The notes beneath the pieces are model-generated. The model made no database searches, was not told where the DNA came from, and was given only the letters and a program-made list of their open reading frames with translations. The translations under genes were made by a program, and so were the position numbers. 63,094 nt of DNA from Pegethrix bostrychoides GSE-TBD4-15B (GTDB lineage Bacteria > Cyanobacteriota > Cyanobacteriia > Elainellales > Elainellaceae), in contig JAHHHV010000010.1 in NCBI GenBank assembly GCA_019359155.1, forward strand, positions 1 through 63,094, read 5' to 3'. Position 1 is the stretch's first letter; the number at the start of each line of letters is the position of its first letter. This document shows positions 45,372 to 54,373 of this stretch, piece by piece.

Positions 45372-46904
45372 CTAACTACCCTGACTGGCCGGAGCAATCT
45401 TGGAAAGCACAGTTTCAGAAAGCGGCTGCACTGTTGAGTAGTGCTGCATGCGCCCTTGCCCCATCGCGGTGGCGGTGGCCTCACTCCAGCGCGTCATCCA
45501 GTTTGGCTGAATGCCCAGCCAAATAATCAGCAGCGTTACAATTACGCCGGGTAGCCGATCCTGCCAGCGGACGCGAGGCAAATTCGCCAGCGTTTCGGGC
45601 AAACGGCCAAAAAACGTCTTATTGATCATGATCAAAAAGTACACCGCCGTTAGCCCTGTGCCAACCATGCTGAGGAGCGTCTGCACCGGGAAGACTTCAA
45701 AGCTGCTGCGGTAGACAATAAACTCAGCAATAAAACCCATCATCCCCGGGATGCCAGCGCTCGCCATCGCCCCGACAATCATCAGGCTGCCAATCACGGG
45801 CAGACCACGCTCTGGGCTGAGCAGTCCCCGCAGCTGGTTAATGTCACGGGTGCCAGTTTTGGCATAGACTACGCCTACTGCCAAAAACAGCAGCGCCGAA
45901 ATCAGGCCGTGGCTGACCATTTGAATAATTGCCCCCAGCAGGCTGAGCGGAGTCGCCGCCGCCGCCGCTAGCAGAATATAGCCCATATGACCTACCGAGC
46001 TATAGGCGACAATTTTTTTCATGTCGGTCTGGGCAATTGCCGCAAACGAGCCGTACAGCACGCTAATTGCAGCCAGCACCGCCAGTCCGGGAGCAATCAC
46101 TCTCCAAGCTTCGGGAAACAGCCCCAGCCCAAATCGCAGGAGGCCATATGTGCCCAGCTTCAGCAGCACTCCAGCCAGCAGCACCGAGGCCGGCGTTGGA
46201 GCCTCAACGTGAGCGTCCGGCAGCCAGGTATGCAGCGGCACGATCGGGATCTTGATGCCAAAGCCAATCAGCAGCGTGATTAGCAGCACCAGCTGGACGG
46301 TAAGCGGCAGGGTTTGCTGCTGCAATAGGTCGTAGTCAAAGCTAGAAGTGCCGCTCAACACCGAGAGGCCGAAGAAAGCAGCCAGAATCAGCACGCCCGA
46401 AAAAGCCGTGTAAATCAAAAACTTGGTGGCCGCATAGCCGCGTCTGGCCCCGCCCCAGATCGCAATGATCAGGTAAAGCGGGATCAGCTCTACTTCGTAG
46501 AAGATAAAAAACAGCAGCAGATTTTCCGCCAGGAAAGCAGCAGCCACGGCGCTCCCCAAAATCAGCATCAGCGCGTAGTAGAGCCGGGGGCGACTGATCT
46601 GCGGATCGCTGCTAAACAGCGCAATCCACACGAGCAGGCTATTCACCAGCACCAGCGGCATCGAAAGTCCGTCAATGCCTAGCCGATAGGACAGCCCCAG
46701 ATTCTCGATCCAGGGCAGCGCTTCTGCAAACTGCATGCCGGGGTTGCTCAGGTCGAACTGGCCAGCCAGGTAAATCGACCACAGCAGAACCAGGCTGGCA
46801 ATCACCAGCGAAATCTGCCGCGCCCGCACCCCTGATGTGGCCTGTGGCAAGCAGGTAATCAGCAGTGCCCCTAACGCCGGAGCCCAAATCAAAACGCTTA
46901 GCAT
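45372..46904 (-). CDS. ndhD4: NDH-1 subunit NdhD4 (CO2-uptake type)
   Basis: 510-residue antiporter-like subunit with about 14 membrane helices. Signature stretches are LSYRLGIDGLSMPLVLVNSLL, YEVELIPLYLIIAIWGG (carrying the essential Glu), HTWLPDAHVEAPTPASVLLAG and TDMKKIVAYSSVGHMGYILL (Lys and His of the proton path). Its place between ndhF4 and cupB identifies it as D4 rather than the respiratory D1/D2. The complex also carries out cyclic electron flow linked to CO2 hydration. Confidence 0.92.
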   Translation of the reverse strand: MLSVLIWAPALGALLITCLPQATSGVRARQISLVIASLVLLWSIYLAGQFDLSNPGMQFAEALPWIENLGLSYRLGIDGLSMPLVLVNSLLVWIALFSSDPQISRPRLYYALMLILGSAVAAAFLAENLLLFFIFYEVELIPLYLIIAIWGGARRGYAATKFLIYTAFSGVLILAAFFGLSVLSGTSSFDYDLLQQQTLPLTVQLVLLITLLIGFGIKIPIVPLHTWLPDAHVEAPTPASVLLAGVLLKLGTYGLLRFGLGLFPEAWRVIAPGLAVLAAISVLYGSFAAIAQTDMKKIVAYSSVGHMGYILLAAAAATPLSLLGAIIQMVSHGLISALLFLAVGVVYAKTGTRDINQLRGLLSPERGLPVIGSLMIVGAMASAGIPGMMGFIAEFIVYRSSFEVFPVQTLLSMVGTGLTAVYFLIMINKTFFGRLPETLANLPRVRWQDRLPGVIVTLLIIWLGIQPNWMTRWSEATATAMGQGRMQHYSTVQPLSETVLSKIAPASQGS

Positions 46905-46966
46905 ATAACGGCGACCCCTAGCCTCTGAAATAATTTAAATACGCGACTAACTATGCGACTGTCAGG

Positions 46967-48814
46967 CTAAAAACCGCTGCCCCAGTAGCCCCAGCCAATA
47001 ACCGTCAGCGCCAAAAATAGCGCCAAAAACAGCGTCAACAGATAGTTGCGCGACTGACCCGACACAGTGTACTTGAGACTCTCGCCGCTAAAAATTGAGA
47101 CCACGCCCACAAAGTTCACCAGCCCGTCCACCACATAGCGGTCAAACCAGGCGGTGAGTCTCGCCCCCTGCACCACGCCCTGCACCACGGTGATCTGGTA
47201 GAGCTGCTCAATCCGAAAATCATAGGCCAAGCCTTCGCGCACCGACGGCCAAACGAGATCAACGGGCTTCGAGATGCCTGGACTGAGGTAGATCCAACCG
47301 CCTAGCCCAGCTCCTAGCCCGCCTGCGCCTAGCAGCAGCAGCAGCACGGTGGGATTAAACTGTGCCCAGGTAGGCAAGATCTGCCATTGACGCAGCAGCA
47401 GCGGCAGCAATAGCGCAATGATCGTTAGCGAAACCATGGGAACTGCCATCAGCCAGCCGACTTCGGGAGCGCGCCGCGTTTTGGGCTGAGGCTGACCGCC
47501 AAACACTAGAACAAACACTCGCACCAGATTAAAAGCCGTCAGCCCGTTCACCACCAGCAAAATCCCGACGAGCCAGGGTGTTGTTGTCCAGACCGTCTCA
47601 GCCCAGGCCAGCATCGCCCAAAAGCAGCCCAGCGGCAGCAGTCCCAGCATTGAAACTGCACCGACCGCATAGGCCAGCGTTGTCGCAGGCATTCGAGACC
47701 CCAGGCCACCTAGCTCGGTCAAATCCTGCGTGCTGGCGGTCAAAATCACTGAGCCCAGACTCATAAACAGTAGCGCCTTGGCAATGCCATGCGTCAGCAG
47801 CAGCATCAGCGCCAGCTCATCTTGCTGCGTTCCGACAGCCAAAAATACCAGCCCCAGATATGCGCTCGTCGAATGGCAGAGAGCTCGCTTGATGTCGATT
47901 TGGGCAATGGCGACGAGCGACGAGCCGACCGCCGTCAGCGCTCCCAAGATCAGCAGAATTTCCAGCGCCAGTGGCGAGAGTGCCAGCACGGGCTGGAGTC
48001 GGATTAGTACATAGGCTCCGCAGGCGACCACCACCGAGTTCCGCAAAATTGAGGCTGGATTTGGCCCTTCCATCGCCTCATCCAGCCAGAGGTTGAGCGG
48101 GAACTGGGCGCATTTGCCCGTCGGCCCAGCCAGCAGCGCTATCCCCAGCAGATTTGCCGTCAGCGGACTCAGCTCCACCTGCTCGGCCCAGAGTGCCAGA
48201 TGGGTAAAGTCGAGACTGCCTGCCAAGTTGGAGAGCGTCACCACGCCCATCAGCAGCAGCAGGTCGCCGACGCGCTTGGTTAAAAAGGCATCGCGCGCTG
48301 CCCCCACCACCAGCGGCTGAGCATACCAGAAACCCACCAGCAAATAGGTCGAAAGCGTCAGCATTTCCAGCAGGGCATAGCTGAGAAACAGCGAATCGCT
48401 CAGTGCCAGCCCCGTCATGGCCGACTCAAAGAAGCCCATCAGCCCGTAGAAGCGAGCCAGCGCCCAGTCTTTTTCCATATAGCCCAAGGCAAACACCTGC
48501 GCCATCAGGCTCAGCAAGGTGATGACGAACGCAGCGCCAACGCTGATTCGTGAAGTCAAGAAGGTGATCCATAGCTCAAATCCCGGTAGGCTGAGCCAGG
48601 GAATCAGCAGCCGATCGGGCGGAGCATCCCAGACCGCCCAAAGCACCAGCGCCGTATGAATCAGCGCCAGAACCGTCATTAAAATGTTGATATAGGCCGC
48701 CGGTCTTGGCCCTGTGCGCTTCACCAAGCCGACCGACCAAGGCAGGGTCAGAATGGCTCCCACCAACCCATAGAGCGGAACCCACCAGCTAGTCTGGTAA
48801 AGGAGCTGATTCAT
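46967..48814 (-). CDS. ndhF4: NDH-1 subunit NdhF4 (CO2-uptake type)
   Basis: 615 residues, NuoL/NdhF-type antiporter-like subunit. LLEMLTLSTYLLVGFWYAQP, AFLTKRVGDLLLLMGV, GPTGKCAQFPLNLWLDEAMEGP and IDIKRALCHSTSAYLGLVFLA are family blocks. The C-terminal amphipathic part (LAYDFRIEQLYQITVVQG) contacts the neighbouring subunits. ATG at 48814 (MNQLLYQTSWW); a TTG lies directly before it. First gene of the operon and divergent from ccmK2, so both parts of the carbon-concentrating mechanism share one control region. Confidence 0.93.
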   Translation of the reverse strand: MNQLLYQTSWWVPLYGLVGAILTLPWSVGLVKRTGPRPAAYINILMTVLALIHTALVLWAVWDAPPDRLLIPWLSLPGFELWITFLTSRISVGAAFVITLLSLMAQVFALGYMEKDWALARFYGLMGFFESAMTGLALSDSLFLSYALLEMLTLSTYLLVGFWYAQPLVVGAARDAFLTKRVGDLLLLMGVVTLSNLAGSLDFTHLALWAEQVELSPLTANLLGIALLAGPTGKCAQFPLNLWLDEAMEGPNPASILRNSVVVACGAYVLIRLQPVLALSPLALEILLILGALTAVGSSLVAIAQIDIKRALCHSTSAYLGLVFLAVGTQQDELALMLLLTHGIAKALLFMSLGSVILTASTQDLTELGGLGSRMPATTLAYAVGAVSMLGLLPLGCFWAMLAWAETVWTTTPWLVGILLVVNGLTAFNLVRVFVLVFGGQPQPKTRRAPEVGWLMAVPMVSLTIIALLLPLLLRQWQILPTWAQFNPTVLLLLLGAGGLGAGLGGWIYLSPGISKPVDLVWPSVREGLAYDFRIEQLYQITVVQGVVQGARLTAWFDRYVVDGLVNFVGVVSIFSGESLKYTVSGQSRNYLLTLFLALFLALTVIGWGYWGSGF

Positions 48815-49268
48815 CAATCCCGCATTTCCTTCTTTTAAAGTTAAAGATGCCTTATAGAGCTTTCAATTGCTAAATATTAGCACTCTGTGAATCAAGGCTT
48901 CGTCTCGTATCGTTTTAATAATTTTTTTATGTTTAATCGCCTTAAAGTTCATTTAACTTCAGCTCGGATTTAAGCCATAAAGGCTGACGGGTGAATGGTA
49001 TAATCCATACCTATATATCAGCTCAGTCAAGCCGAGGAAGGCAAAGTTGAGGGAGGCAAAGTTTAATAAACTAGGGTTATGTTTTCTATAAAAACAATTA
49101 TCCGAAGTTATGTTGCTATGCGTCTACACTGGCCTGTATTGTTAGGTCTGGGAGTTGTAAAACACTTTTGAAGACTGAGGATAGGGCTTCCGTCGAATTT
49201 AGTCTCTGCTCTGGTTTTCAGAAGGTAGGACTGCTCGTTGATATTGGGGATATTGGAGAGAGTTTAAG
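48815..49268. promoter_or_regulatory. 454-bp divergent control region between ndhF4 and ccmK2; -10 TATAAT at 48999-49004
   Basis: AT-rich region flanked by the two inorganic-carbon operons. On the plus strand a perfect TATAAT sits at 48999-49004 without a clear -35. If used, the ccmK2 transcript would have a leader of about 255 nt. The repeated element AGGCAAAGTT (49039-49048 and 49054-49063) lies in that leader. I did not find a convincing LysR-type palindrome. Confidence 0.4.
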
Positions 49269-50174: not shown

Positions 50175-50477
50175 ATGCAAATTGCCAAAGTCTGCGGCAC
50201 GGTGGTCAGCACGCAAAAAGAACAGAGCCTAATGGGCGTGAAGTTCCTGCTGGTGCAGTTTCTCGATTCCGAGGGTCAGCCTCTGCCTCGCTATGAGGTG
50301 GCGGCTGACAGCGTCGGGGCGGGGCTTGATGAATGGGTGCTGGTGAGTCGCGGCAGCGCGGCTCGTCAGATCCAGGGCAACGAGTCGCGTCCCCTGGATG
50401 CACTGATTATCGGCATCATTGACACAGTTAGCGTTGAAAACCAGCGGCTCTACAGCAAGCGCGATCAGGATCGCTAG
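50175..50477 (+). CDS. ccmL: Carboxysome vertex protein CcmL
   Basis: 100 residues, pentamer-forming shell protein that closes the icosahedral vertices. MQIAKVCGTVVSTQKEQSL and LLVQFLDSEGQPLPRYEVAADSVGAGLDEWVLV, read as two blocks, are diagnostic, together with GSAARQ and the C-terminal IIGIIDTVSVE. 25 bp after ccmK1. Confidence 0.96.
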   Translation: MQIAKVCGTVVSTQKEQSLMGVKFLLVQFLDSEGQPLPRYEVAADSVGAGLDEWVLVSRGSAARQIQGNESRPLDALIIGIIDTVSVENQRLYSKRDQDR

Positions 50478-50587: not shown

Positions 50588-50646
50588 AAGCTGTTTAACC
50601 GAAGACTGTTCAACCGAAGACTGTTCAACCAAAGGCTGTTTAGCCA
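50588..50646. repeat. 15-bp tandem repeat, 4 copies, ccmM leader
   Basis: AAGCTGTTTAACCG (14 nt), AAGACTGTTCAACCG, AAGACTGTTCAACCA and AAGGCTGTTTAGCCA, ending 12 bp before the ccmM ATG. Each unit contains GTT-N-AAC, a small palindrome. Confidence 0.95.
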
Positions 50647-50658
50647 AGAGATAATCCT

Positions 50659-52443
50659 ATGGCAAGCGCTACTGCTGCTCCAACGCCCGTGACAACCGCT
50701 CAACCTCAAATTGCCCCAACGGCCTACGTCCATGCTTTTTCAAACCTGAGTGGGAATGTCAGCGTTGGCGATCGCGCCTTGATTGGCCCCGGGGCTTCCA
50801 TCCGAGCTGATCAGGGTGGCGCGTTTCATATTGGCTCAGGTAGCCAGGTTCAGGATGGTGCCATCATCCACAGTCTGGAGCAGGGGCGCGTCGTCGGAGC
50901 GGATCAAAATCCCTACTCTGTTTGGATCGGTGAGGGTAGCTCAATTACGCATATGGTGCTGATTCAAGGCCCAGCCTACATCGGCAGCCGCTGCTTTATT
51001 GGCTTTCGCTCTACGGTGTTCAACGCCCGAATTGGCGATGACTGCATTGTGATGATGCATACGCTGATTCAGGATGTCGAAATTCCGCCCGGTAAATTTG
51101 TGCCCTCTGGCGCAGTGATTACCAGCCAGCAGCAGGCGGATCGGTTGCCTGACGTGCAGGAGGCCGATCGGCGCTTTGCCCAACATCTAATGGGCGCAAA
51201 TGCGGCTTTGCAATCCGGCGCGCATCGAGCTGAGCAGATCACGCAGACCGCCCCGATTCGGCAGCAGCTTGAACGCAGCTACAGCGAATCTCACAGCCCG
51301 ATCAGTTCACAATCTGCTTCATCCTCTGGTTCACTCTCTGATCTCAAGTCCCAACGTTCTCATTCCACCTCTAACTCTAGTCCCATGCAAAACACTCGCT
51401 TAGCGCCCGAAATTGTTGACCAGGTTCGCCAGTTGCTGTCCCAAGGCCTGATCGTCAGCGCCGAATATGCCGATAAGCGCCGGTTCCAGACCAGCTCTTG
51501 GACAAGCGCCTCCATTCACTCAACGCGAGATTCAGAGGTGCTAAGCGCAATCGAAGCCTGCATAGCCGAACATCAGGGCGACTATGTGCGCTTGATTGGG
51601 GTTGATCCCAAAGTGAAGCGGCGCGTCTTGGAGCTGGTGATCCAGCGGCCTGACGGATCCGGCGTGCGCAGTACTCCTCCGGTCAAAACCTACAGCGCCA
51701 GCAGCGCTAGCAGCGCCAGTAGCTATGGCGGATCTAGCAGCGCTAGCTACGGCGGATCTTCCAAACTGAGTCCAGACGTGATCGAGAAGGTGCATCAGTT
51801 TATTAATCAAGGCTTCAAAATTGGCACGGAACATGCCGACAATCGGCATTTTCGGATTAGCTCTTGGAACAGCTGCTCGCCGATTCAAACCAGCCGTCCA
51901 GCCGATGCGATTGCGGCTCTCGAATCCTGCCTGAACGAGCATAGCGGCGAGTACGTGCGCGTCTTCGGCATTGATCCCAAGGCAAAACGCCGGATCTCAG
52001 AAATGATTGTGCAGCGCCCCGGCGAATCCAATGGCGCAGGTCAGGCTCCTGCTACCAACGGTAACGGCAGCTACAGCCAGACTAAGCAGCAATCGGGCTA
52101 TCAGCCTAGCAGCTATCAACCTAGTCCCCCGCTCTATACGGGCAGCACGGGTGGCCATGCGGCGGCGGGGCATACAGGCGGTAAACTCAGCGCTGAAGTC
52201 GTTGCTGAGGTGCGGCAGCTTTTGTCTCAAGGCTACCGAGTGGCCGCTGAACATGCTGATCTTCGCCGCTTCCGAATCAGCTCTTGGACGAGCTGCCCGC
52301 CGATTCAATCTACCCGCGACAGCGATGTGCTGGCAGCTATCGAAGCCTGCGTAGCCGAAAACAGCGGTGAGTACGTGCGGCTAATCGGTGTCGATACGAA
52401 AACCAAGCGCCGCGTCGCTGAGGTGATGGTACAGCGCCCATAA
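50659..52443 (+). CDS. ccmM: Carboxysome scaffold CcmM (gamma-CA-like domain + 3 SSUL domains)
   Basis: 594 residues. Residues about 18-185 form a left-handed beta-helix like gamma-carbonic anhydrase; three Rubisco-small-subunit-like repeats follow (about 248-332, 365-450, 508-593). The repeats condense Rubisco into the carboxysome core. Zinc ligands are His71 (GAIIHSL), His98 (SITHM), and at the third position Gln103 (LIQGPAY) instead of His. The regulatory cysteine pair after the beta-helix is also absent, so carbonic anhydrase activity is not expected. SSUL2 and SSUL3 keep a Cys pair (NSC/ESC, TSC/EAC), while SSUL1 has only one. An in-frame ATG at 51385 (Met243) could start the short CcmM form, although it has no good ribosome-binding site. 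Confidence 0.96.
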
Positions 52444-52470: not shown

Positions 52471-53226
52471 ATGCAATCGCCGTCGCTGAACTCTGTCAAC
52501 AATAGTCATATCTACAGCCATATCTATGCAAGTGGGAATGTGGTGGTACATCCGAGTGCAGCAGTTGCCCCCGGCGTTTTGCTCCAGGCTGATCCGGACT
52601 GCTGTCTGACCATTGCGGCTGGGGTTTGTGTCGGGCAGGGCGTTGTGATACATGCCTGTCGGGGCAACTTGACGGTTGAGACTGGCTGTACGTTGGGGCG
52701 GGGCGTGCTGATTGTCGGGCGGGGGCAGATTGGGGCAGATACCTGCATTGGGGCATTCACCACCGTCTGGAATAGCTCGATTGCGGCGGGGCAGATTCTG
52801 CCGCCTAATTCGCTGATTGGGGAGACTGGACGGCAGGTGGCACTGGAGCCAGCACCTGAACTAGCACCTGAGCCAGCGAAGCCAGCGGAGTCAGTTCCCG
52901 ATCCTTGGGCCACTGAACCAGCACCTGCTCCTTTCTTCAAGGCTGAATTCGTCAGCGGATTTAGCGTCGGATTTGGCAGCTCAAACGGCAGCTCTAGTAG
53001 TGGGGTAGTTCCTCCAGCGCCGCAGCCTCCAGTATCTCAGCCCTCAACACCACAAGCTCCAGCCTCAGCGCCGATTCACCCAGCGCCAACGCCAATGCCT
53101 GAACCTTCAGCTCAAGTCTATGGTCAGGCCTACGTCGAGCGGATGATGATTGCGATGTTTCCGCATCGGCAAGCCCTCAGCCAGCCGGATGATTTTGGCT
53201 CCGCGAGGCCGCCTGCTAGTGATTGA
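52471..53226 (+). CDS. ccmN: Carboxysome adaptor CcmN
   Basis: 251 residues: a beta-helix of hexapeptide repeats (about 15-125: GNVVVHPSAAVAPGVLLQ, TLGRGVLIVGRGQIGADT), then a Pro/Ala/Glu-rich linker, then the C-terminal encapsulation peptide VYGQAYVERMMIAMFPHRQ (about 217-235), which binds the CcmK shell. The beta-helix binds CcmM. It follows ccmM by 27 bp. The linker is longer and more repetitive than usual. Confidence 0.94.
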   Translation: MQSPSLNSVNNSHIYSHIYASGNVVVHPSAAVAPGVLLQADPDCCLTIAAGVCVGQGVVIHACRGNLTVETGCTLGRGVLIVGRGQIGADTCIGAFTTVWNSSIAAGQILPPNSLIGETGRQVALEPAPELAPEPAKPAESVPDPWATEPAPAPFFKAEFVSGFSVGFGSSNGSSSSGVVPPAPQPPVSQPSTPQAPASAPIHPAPTPMPEPSAQVYGQAYVERMMIAMFPHRQALSQPDDFGSARPPASD

Positions 53227-53336: not shown

Positions 53337-53374
53337 CGCTCTGAGCGTCCGAGACTCTATTGCTGCTCCAAATC

Positions 53375-54373
53375 ATGACCTCATCTCGTCCGCCGATTCA
53401 AAGCGAAAGCGCCCTCGGACTCGTCTCGACCCGCAGCTTCCCGGCGATTATTGGCGTGGCTGACAACATGCTAAAAGCGGCTTCAGTGCGGCTGGTGGGC
53501 TACGAAAAAACTGGCAGCGGCTACTGTACCGCTGTGGTGCGCGGCGGCATTTCCGACGTGCGGTTGGCCATTGACGCAGGCGTCGACTTTGCCGAGCGGA
53601 TTGGTCAACTTGTCTCCAGCAGCGTGATTCCCAGGCCGCTCGCCAACCTGGAAGCCGTGCTGCCAATCAGCGATCGGCTGGCGCAAATAGCCGCAGAGCA
53701 GGGCTATAGCCGCCTCAGCAATCAGGCCGTAGGGCTGCTGGAGACGCGGGGCTTTCCGGCGATGGTGGGAGCCGCAGATGCCATGCTGAAGTCTGCCGAG
53801 GTGTATCTTTCTGGCTATGAGATCGTCGGCGACGGGCTTTGTACCGCCGTGATTCGAGGTCGGATTTCGGATGTGACAGTAGCGGTCGAAGCCGGAATGC
53901 ATGAGGCCGATCGAATTGGCGAGCTGCATTCCGTCATGGTGATTCCTCGCCCGCTCGAAGATCTCGAAGAAACCCTGCCCACCGCGAGCTGCTGGATCGA
54001 ACAGCCGATTGCTCTGCCAATCTCGATCAAAGAAACTCAAAAAGAGCTGGTGTCGCAAGCCGAGGCGCAGGCTCAATCGCAGGCCAAATCGCAGGCCATG
54101 CCCGACCTGCGGCAGCTGCCCGTCGCCGATCTAGAGCCAGTGCAGTTTCCCGAAGCGGCTCAGCCTGAACTGCTCCAGTTCGAGGTGCAGCCTGAAGTAG
54201 TTCGGACTGAAGTGGTTCGGACTGAAGTAGCCCAACCCGAAGTAGCTCAACCCGAAGTAGCTGAGTCTGAGGCGATTCAAACTGAAGTGATTCAGCCAGA
54301 GGTGTTAGACTCTCGCTCAGAGCCAATCATCCGAGCCAAGCCGTTTGTGCTGCCTGAAGAGAGCATTGACTAG
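53375..54373 (+). CDS. ccmO: Carboxysome tandem-BMC shell protein CcmO with long C-terminal extension
   Basis: 332 residues with two BMC domains in tandem (about 13-100: ALGLVSTRSFPAIIGVADNML, and about 118-205: AVGLLETRGFPAMVGAADAML, each read as block starts) separated by a short linker. Forms pseudohexameric shell tiles and is needed for shell closure in some strains. The C-terminal 120 residues are an acidic, Gln/Pro-rich extension made partly of a five-residue repeat EV(V/A/I)(R/Q)(T/P), which I do not recall from CcmO. ATG at 53375; a TTG at 53360 is possible. The position after ccmN matches the K-L-M-N-O order of Synechococcus elongatus. Confidence 0.93.
   Translation: MTSSRPPIQSESALGLVSTRSFPAIIGVADNMLKAASVRLVGYEKTGSGYCTAVVRGGISDVRLAIDAGVDFAERIGQLVSSSVIPRPLANLEAVLPISDRLAQIAAEQGYSRLSNQAVGLLETRGFPAMVGAADAMLKSAEVYLSGYEIVGDGLCTAVIRGRISDVTVAVEAGMHEADRIGELHSVMVIPRPLEDLEETLPTASCWIEQPIALPISIKETQKELVSQAEAQAQSQAKSQAMPDLRQLPVADLEPVQFPEAAQPELLQFEVQPEVVRTEVVRTEVAQPEVAQPEVAESEAIQTEVIQPEVLDSRSEPIIRAKPFVLPEESID
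54194..54298. repeat. 15-bp tandem repeat, 7 copies, coding (ccmO tail)
   Basis: Consensus GAAGTAG(C/T)(T/C)CRRMCY, beginning GAAGTAGTTCGGACT at 54194. The first two and the third and fourth units are almost identical pairwise, so the array grew by local duplication. Encodes EVVRT, EVVRT, EVAQP, EVAQP, EVAES, EAIQT, EVIQP. Confidence 0.95.

Follow-up and report, generated by a model that had tools for sequence, protein, structure and literature searches.

We suggest that the gamma-carbonic-anhydrase-like (gammaCAL) domain of CcmM in Pegethrix bostrychoides GSE-TBD4-15B is very probably a non-catalytic scaffold, a former gamma-carbonic anhydrase (gamma-CA), and that bicarbonate dehydration is carried out by CcaA, a beta-carbonic anhydrase (beta-CA). 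The proposal draws on the protein sequence, on a putative docking tail of CcaA and on an association seen across the class. In outline, a former gamma-CA domain would have lost its third zinc ligand (now Gln103), its catalytic Glu (now Gln52) and the Cys pair of its redox switch, and would have kept its beta-helix sequence and the residues of the pocket for the CcaA peptide under strong purifying selection, leaving a scaffold. CcaA, encoded elsewhere in the genome, would be recruited to the carboxysome by its C2 tail and would there dehydrate bicarbonate. We infer that the domain holds no zinc and has no activity, that CcaA docks on it and that CcaA lies inside the carboxysome. A first-pass annotation of this DNA had called the domain structural only and assigned the reaction to another enzyme; our analysis supports this, the structural role being a prediction from sequence. 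Papers identified by PMC number are cited from excerpts.

The ccmM gene and its surroundings

The window, the whole stretch of 63,094 nucleotides analysed here, corresponds to contig C10 of a genome assembled into 92 contigs (5.72 Mb, 99.97% complete). The ccmM product scores 684 bits against NF053794 (beta-carboxysome scaffolding protein CcmM; cut-off 550), matches Pfam RuBisCO_small (PF00101) in three stretches as well as Hexapep, and has the CcmM layout of a beta-helix followed by SSUL modules. PDB 3kwc (Thermosynechococcus elongatus CcmM) matches the domain with an E-value of 4e-85. The gene lies inside a ccmK-L-M-N(-O) locus (Table 1), in which ccmL, ccmN and ccmO exceed the cut-offs of their models; the two upstream shell genes match BMC models below cut-offs only and are called ccmK from their position. 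The ccmN product also resembles the gammaCAL domain, though weakly (beta-helix match, 24 bits).

Table 1. Features of the ccmM region, in window coordinates
Feature	Position	Strand	Remarks
ccmL	50175-50477	+	carboxysome-locus neighbour; NF053795 175 bits, cut-off 125
ccmM	50659-52443	+	594 aa; gamma-CA-like domain and three SSUL modules
gammaCAL domain (gamma-CA-like)	50659-51198	+	residues 1-180, boundary approximate; aligned to 3kwc and 7o4z
Gln52 (CAG), replacing Glu of RADEG	50812-50814	+	3kwc alignment
His71 (CAC), kept zinc ligand, T. elongatus His75	50869-50871	+	codon and 3kwc alignment
His98 (CAT), kept zinc ligand, T. elongatus His102	50950-50952	+	codon and 3kwc alignment
Gln103 (CAA), replacing zinc ligand His107	50965-50967	+	codon and 3kwc alignment
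Lost Cys-pair site, Arg190 and Gln196 for Cys194/Cys200	51226-51246	+	3kwc alignment, codons
SSUL1 conserved core	51484-51594	+	residues 276-312, approximate
SSUL3	52189-52440	+	residues 511-594, best PF00101 stretch; Cys pair kept
ccmN	52471-53226	+	neighbour; NF053793 134 bits, cut-off 100

Several other features of the region were seen. In SSUL1, Ala replaces the first Cys of the redox pair, and SSUL2 and SSUL3 keep both; the Cys residues of the whole protein are 112, 129, 301, 406, 424, 546 and 564. CcmO (53360-54373) has 337 residues against the 205 positions of its model, and the extra stretch at its C-terminus has a high content of Glu, Val and Gln, with 15-base tandem repeats at 54192-54262. 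A further 15-base tandem repeat (3.3 copies, 50591-50640) lies between ccmL and ccmM, immediately upstream of ccmM. Divergent to the locus on the minus strand are ndhD and ndhF (45372-48817), the latter exceeding the cut-off of TIGR01960, the CO2-uptake NdhF3 family.

The active site of CcmM

Active gamma-CAs carry three His ligands and a catalytic Glu in an R-x-D-E-G motif, and those of the CcmM type also carry the activating disulfide Cys194-Cys200. The window protein has none of the three in full. Its ligand set is His71, His98 and Gln103, as the first-pass annotation had read from the codons, and the 3kwc alignment pairs the motifs as VIHGL/IIHSL, THMAL/THMVL and LIHGP/LIQGP (T. elongatus/window), so the proposed offset of four to Thermosynechococcus numbering is also correct. 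The range then assigned to the lesions, 50875-50985, takes in the Gln103 codon; the His71 codon falls just upstream of its start. Where T. elongatus has SGYQCAENIACIAP, both Cys are replaced in the aligned window stretch (Arg190 and Gln196), and there is no Cys at all between residues 164 and 262, in agreement with the earlier statement that the region from the beta-helix to the first SSUL is free of Cys.

The alignment adds a lesion absent from that annotation, Gln52 in place of the RADEG Glu. We take this Glu to be the equivalent of Glu62 of Cam, and the Cam-like enzyme 9lin has SDEG at the aligned position. Cam Glu62 is reported to lie in the proton path (PMC4519908). According to the same excerpt, Glu62 and Glu84 are both absent from T. 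elongatus CcmM, and the case for Gln52 would be weaker if so; the 3kwc alignment nevertheless has a Glu in RADEG. AlphaFold2 gave a mean pLDDT of 66.8 for the window domain and 66.3 for the intact domain of Elainella saxicola (same 23 sequences), and the would-be Cys-pair stretch scored under 50 for the window and higher for E. saxicola, both models being too poor elsewhere for a comparison.

One alternative is that His71, His98 and Gln103 still bind a metal and that the domain has a low or different activity without the disulfide switch. Two of the His ligands are indeed present, as are the residues at the positions of Arg59, Asp61 and Gln75 of Cam, presumably their equivalents. A carboxamide can serve as a weak zinc ligand in CA II, and a change from His to Gln need not abolish zinc binding. 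In the excerpt of PMC10175565, which discusses CA II ligand variants with measured affinities, H119N and H119Q are however those with the lowest predicted zinc probability. The occurrence of three lesions together also argues against a working site, as does the nature of Gln52, which replaces a Glu that is invariant in the 48 CcaA-less genomes in which it could be read. We consider a functional metal site of this kind highly improbable.

CcaA and its putative docking site

The genome holds three beta-CA genes by a search with PF00484. One of them, encoding 324 residues, is a CcaA homologue: it scores 162 bits against PF00484 and 337 bits against PDB 5swc (named Carbonic anhydrase), which we take to be Synechocystis CcaA. 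It has the beta-CA core, with both metal-site motifs, CSDSR and GHSHC, kept, and its C-terminus ends LWLSPEQAQRIY; its final residues, LWLSPEQAQRIYGGSPSKPS, place it among the CcaA proteins with a C2 tail. In Synechococcus elongatus, CcaA docks on gammaCAL through a C-terminal helix, PEQQQRIY, with W257, R265 and Y267 (Zang et al. 2021, excerpt of PMC8580825). The tail encoded here reads PEQAQRIY, and the Trp, Arg and Tyr are kept. The enzyme that the first-pass annotation had expected, with CcaA as its example, therefore has a homologue in the genome, complete with metal motifs and a C2-like tail. At the N-terminus of each remaining beta-CA is a stretch that resembles a twin-arginine signal (SRRSLLQFG and NRRSFLQLG, read by eye), and both for that reason look exported. 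An alpha-CA was rejected as the alternative enzyme, there being no alpha-CA match in the genome, and so was rescue by a second gamma-CA, the matches besides CcmM being four at 18-25 bits, one of them ccmN.

On the CcmM side, seven of the eight named contact residues of the pocket are identical in the window (F123, N124, R126, D141, E143, Q159 and D163); the eighth, L81, is Val. The 22 domains of CcaA-containing genomes that have lost a zinc ligand keep R126, D141 and Q159 in every case, F123, N124 and D163 in 21 and E143 in 18. The same residues are kept in 43 to 49 of the 49 CcaA-less genomes, and this nearly equal conservation means that the pocket alone is not specific evidence of docking. 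Of 86 CcaA tails read, 71 come from genomes whose CcmM is degenerate and 15, an arbitrary pick, from genomes where it is intact; C2 occurs in 68 of the former and 10 of the latter, and four further degenerate genomes (G087, G199, G205 and G211) lie outside this sample. The three misses are a variant tail (G043), an unrelated end in a genome with a second CcaA-like match (G239) and a CcaA without recognisable C2 in G207 (L389; G207:C1:2101550-2102700), a genome in which the Cys pair of CcmM is lost.

It could also be that the domain is inactive and CcaA is not the carboxysomal enzyme, the CO2 coming from another source. There is a precedent in Sodalinema, whose CcaA homologue CahB1 is reported as extracellular though its CcmM looks inactive (PMC9865033), and the genome does hold two further beta-CA genes. 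The C2-like tail on CcaA and the pocket residues kept in CcmM speak against this, as do the twin-arginine-like starts of those two beta-CAs, and we regard it as highly improbable.

Between the window and its nearest relative, PMM_0073, dN/dS is 0.082 over the first 180 codons of ccmM and 0.079 over the remainder; the gammaCAL domain is under purifying selection. A pseudogene was rejected in view of the open frame and the dN/dS of 0.08. SSUL contacts in S. elongatus are assigned to five charged residues of gammaCAL; the window protein shares two of these and has changes at three (E17 to Gln15, D35 to Asn33 and R37 to Ser35), which suggests that the SSUL contact may work differently here.

CcmM and CcaA across the class

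We surveyed 195 genomes of the class, drawn evenly, of which 169 have CcmM (E 1e-20) and 121 have CcaA (E 1e-40); two (G124 and G160) have CcaA and no CcmM match. The main CcmM was read in 167 of the 169 (all save G055, with CcaA, and G157, without), and CcaA is present in 118 of these and absent from 49. The counts do not cover 13 CcmM that are second copies or distant ones, nor 14 genomes sampled solely as relatives. The 60 residues that follow QQADRL were scanned for Cys, and the pair was scored as lost when they held fewer than two; a single remaining Cys therefore counts as loss.

Counting genomes singly and ignoring kinship, the Cys pair is lost in 74 of the 118 CcaA-containing genomes and in 0 of the 49 others, and the Glu in 40 of 118 and 0 of 49. 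The confinement of Cys-pair loss to CcaA-containing genomes is in line with the replacement of CcmM by another enzyme that the first-pass annotation had proposed. Among the CcaA-less genomes, the RADEG Glu is kept in all 48 CcmM that could be read at this position; the remaining one has a gap. As for the ligands, three His are found in 143 of the 167 CcmM; 23, that of the window included, have lost a ligand, and the last is truncated at the site. By CcaA status, ligand loss is found in 22 of 118 against 1 of 49 (23 of 118 if the truncated G074, here set aside, is added). The sole CcaA-less exception, G092, has Tyr as third ligand and no PF00484 match. Its CcmM (L194; G092:C520:6031-6603) reads His, His, Tyr with the Glu and the Cys pair intact, in an assembly that is 8% contaminated, and may represent an atypical active site, or else a gap or an error.

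The association has its bounds. CcaA does not always bring decay, as 42 of the 118 genomes with CcaA keep three His and two linker Cys, and the Cys pair is often lost (74 of 167), which is by itself no proof of inactivity. Nor does CcaA-less mean beta-CA-less: PF00484 found another beta-CA in three of eight CcaA-less genomes of the class. On the CcmM tree, which has many weak branches and long ones joined together, a minimum of 18 changes is needed for the Cys trait, 9 for the ligands and 20 for the Glu. Only five independent pairs stand on supported branches, about two of them for the association, none against and three showing no difference, a sample too small to reach significance.

Apparent order of losses

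Once three sequences gapped at the Glu (G074, G163 and G192) are omitted, 86 CcmM are fully intact, 35 have lost the Cys pair only, 18 the Cys pair and Glu, and 19 the Cys pair, Glu and a ligand; rarer are loss of the Glu only (3), of the Cys pair and a ligand (1) and of a ligand only (2). These states, which are not reconstructed ancestors, suit an apparent order in which the Cys pair goes first, then the Glu and then His75 or His107. The His102 position is kept in 21 of the 22 ligand-lost CcmM of genomes with CcaA. By analogy, His102 presumably corresponds to His117 of Cam, the ligand from the neighbouring subunit, and its retention perhaps reflects trimer packing. Position 107 in the 22 domains is occupied by Gln (8), His (6), Tyr (4), Asn (3) or Arg (1). 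All of the replacements are one base from a His codon, so plain drift would be compatible with them too.

A stronger version would hold that decay follows a set order once a C2-tailed CcaA is present (Cys pair, Glu, His75/His107, with His102 kept), that Glu-to-Gln and His-to-Gln arose twice in the genus as if coupled, and that the role of the retained His and of the Gln/Gln site would then lie in trimer packing or in binding a new ligand, with more than mere drift behind them. We put this forward tentatively, as a rather unlikely extension. Among the matches listed in a search of the open-licence literature, there was no survey of comparable size and no order of decay, and no title on this substitution.

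Relatives within the genus

The nearest relative, the metagenome-assembled PMM_0073 (G034; L009/L119), is 87% identical and has CAA at position 103, Gln52 and no Cys pair. A second genome of the genus, G033, has CAG at 103, Gln52 and one remaining Cys, and G048, of the same family, has Gln103 and retains the Glu. Elsewhere in the genus, Elainella sp. Prado103 (G032) has three His, Gly for the Glu and no Cys pair, and E. saxicola E1 (L010/G031) has three His, the Glu and both Cys. In a pattern search that favoured close relatives, 78 of 80 related loci have three His; the other two are PMM_0073 and Cyanothece SIO2G6, which has Asn at the lost ligand and retains the Cys pair. A sequencing or assembly error at CAA 50965-50967, raised in the first-pass annotation and plausible in so far as CAA is one base from CAC or CAT, has a negligible probability, since the PMM_0073 and G033 assemblies also encode Gln and have the Glu-to-Gln change alongside.

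A tree of CcmM and CcaA joins the window to PMM_0073 with support 100/100 and these to E. saxicola and Prado103 at 90/91, with G033 outside. A forced single clade of the three Gln/Gln genomes (window, PMM_0073 and G033) is not rejected (p 0.146). The first Cys of SSUL1 is lost in the window, PMM_0073, E. saxicola and Prado103 and kept in G033, which favours two Gln/Gln events; we regard separate origins in G033 and in the window lineage as somewhat more likely than one. CcaA is present in all five genomes of the genus, the window's own included, and the C2 tail is seen in four of them, ccaA of PMM_0073 running off its contig. Decay of CcmM would appear to postdate the presence of CcaA.

Comparison with known systems

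The division of labour between CcmM and CcaA is a known idea: excerpts of five papers have CcmM often inactive where CcaA is present (PMC9120777, PMC13249358, PMC5472144, PMC9865033 and PMC10172474), and one of them describes a strain in which both are apparently active (PMC10172474). The less familiar element is the apparent order of decay. The window offers a natural case of an enzyme domain seemingly turned into a scaffold where a second enzyme can take over its reaction, in a genus whose CcmM proteins range from intact through partly decayed to more fully decayed. This series, together with the absence of Cys-pair loss among the 49 CcaA-less genomes, supplies concrete pairs of proteins on which to test the idea that CcaA replaces CcmM. 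It also cautions that a CcmM should not be annotated as a carbonic anhydrase by default.

The closest functional parallels are Synechocystis 6803 and S. elongatus 7942, in which the gamma-CA domain is reported to be non-functional and CcaA is present (PMC5472144, PMC9120777). As in those organisms, the window CcmM combines gammaCAL with SSULs, its catalysis is predicted to be lost and a CcaA accompanies it, with the C2 helix matching that of S. elongatus 7942 in its Trp, Arg and Tyr. The S. elongatus CcmM differs in keeping three His (VIHGL and ITHKALIHG in 7o4z) and RADEG, whereas the window protein lacks the third ligand and the Glu, and S. elongatus CcaA is shorter (272 residues as against 324 here). 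CcmM of T. elongatus, which is reported to be active (PMC13249358), has the same domain (3kwc/3kwd), aligning with one two-residue gap; it has three His, the Glu and Cys194-Cys200, where the window protein has two His and neither the Glu nor either Cys. Within the genus, the E. saxicola E1 domain is 70% identical to that of the window and is likewise found with a C2-tailed CcaA but, unlike the window domain, retains all three His, the Glu and the two Cys, so that CcmM is apparently active there in the company of CcaA.
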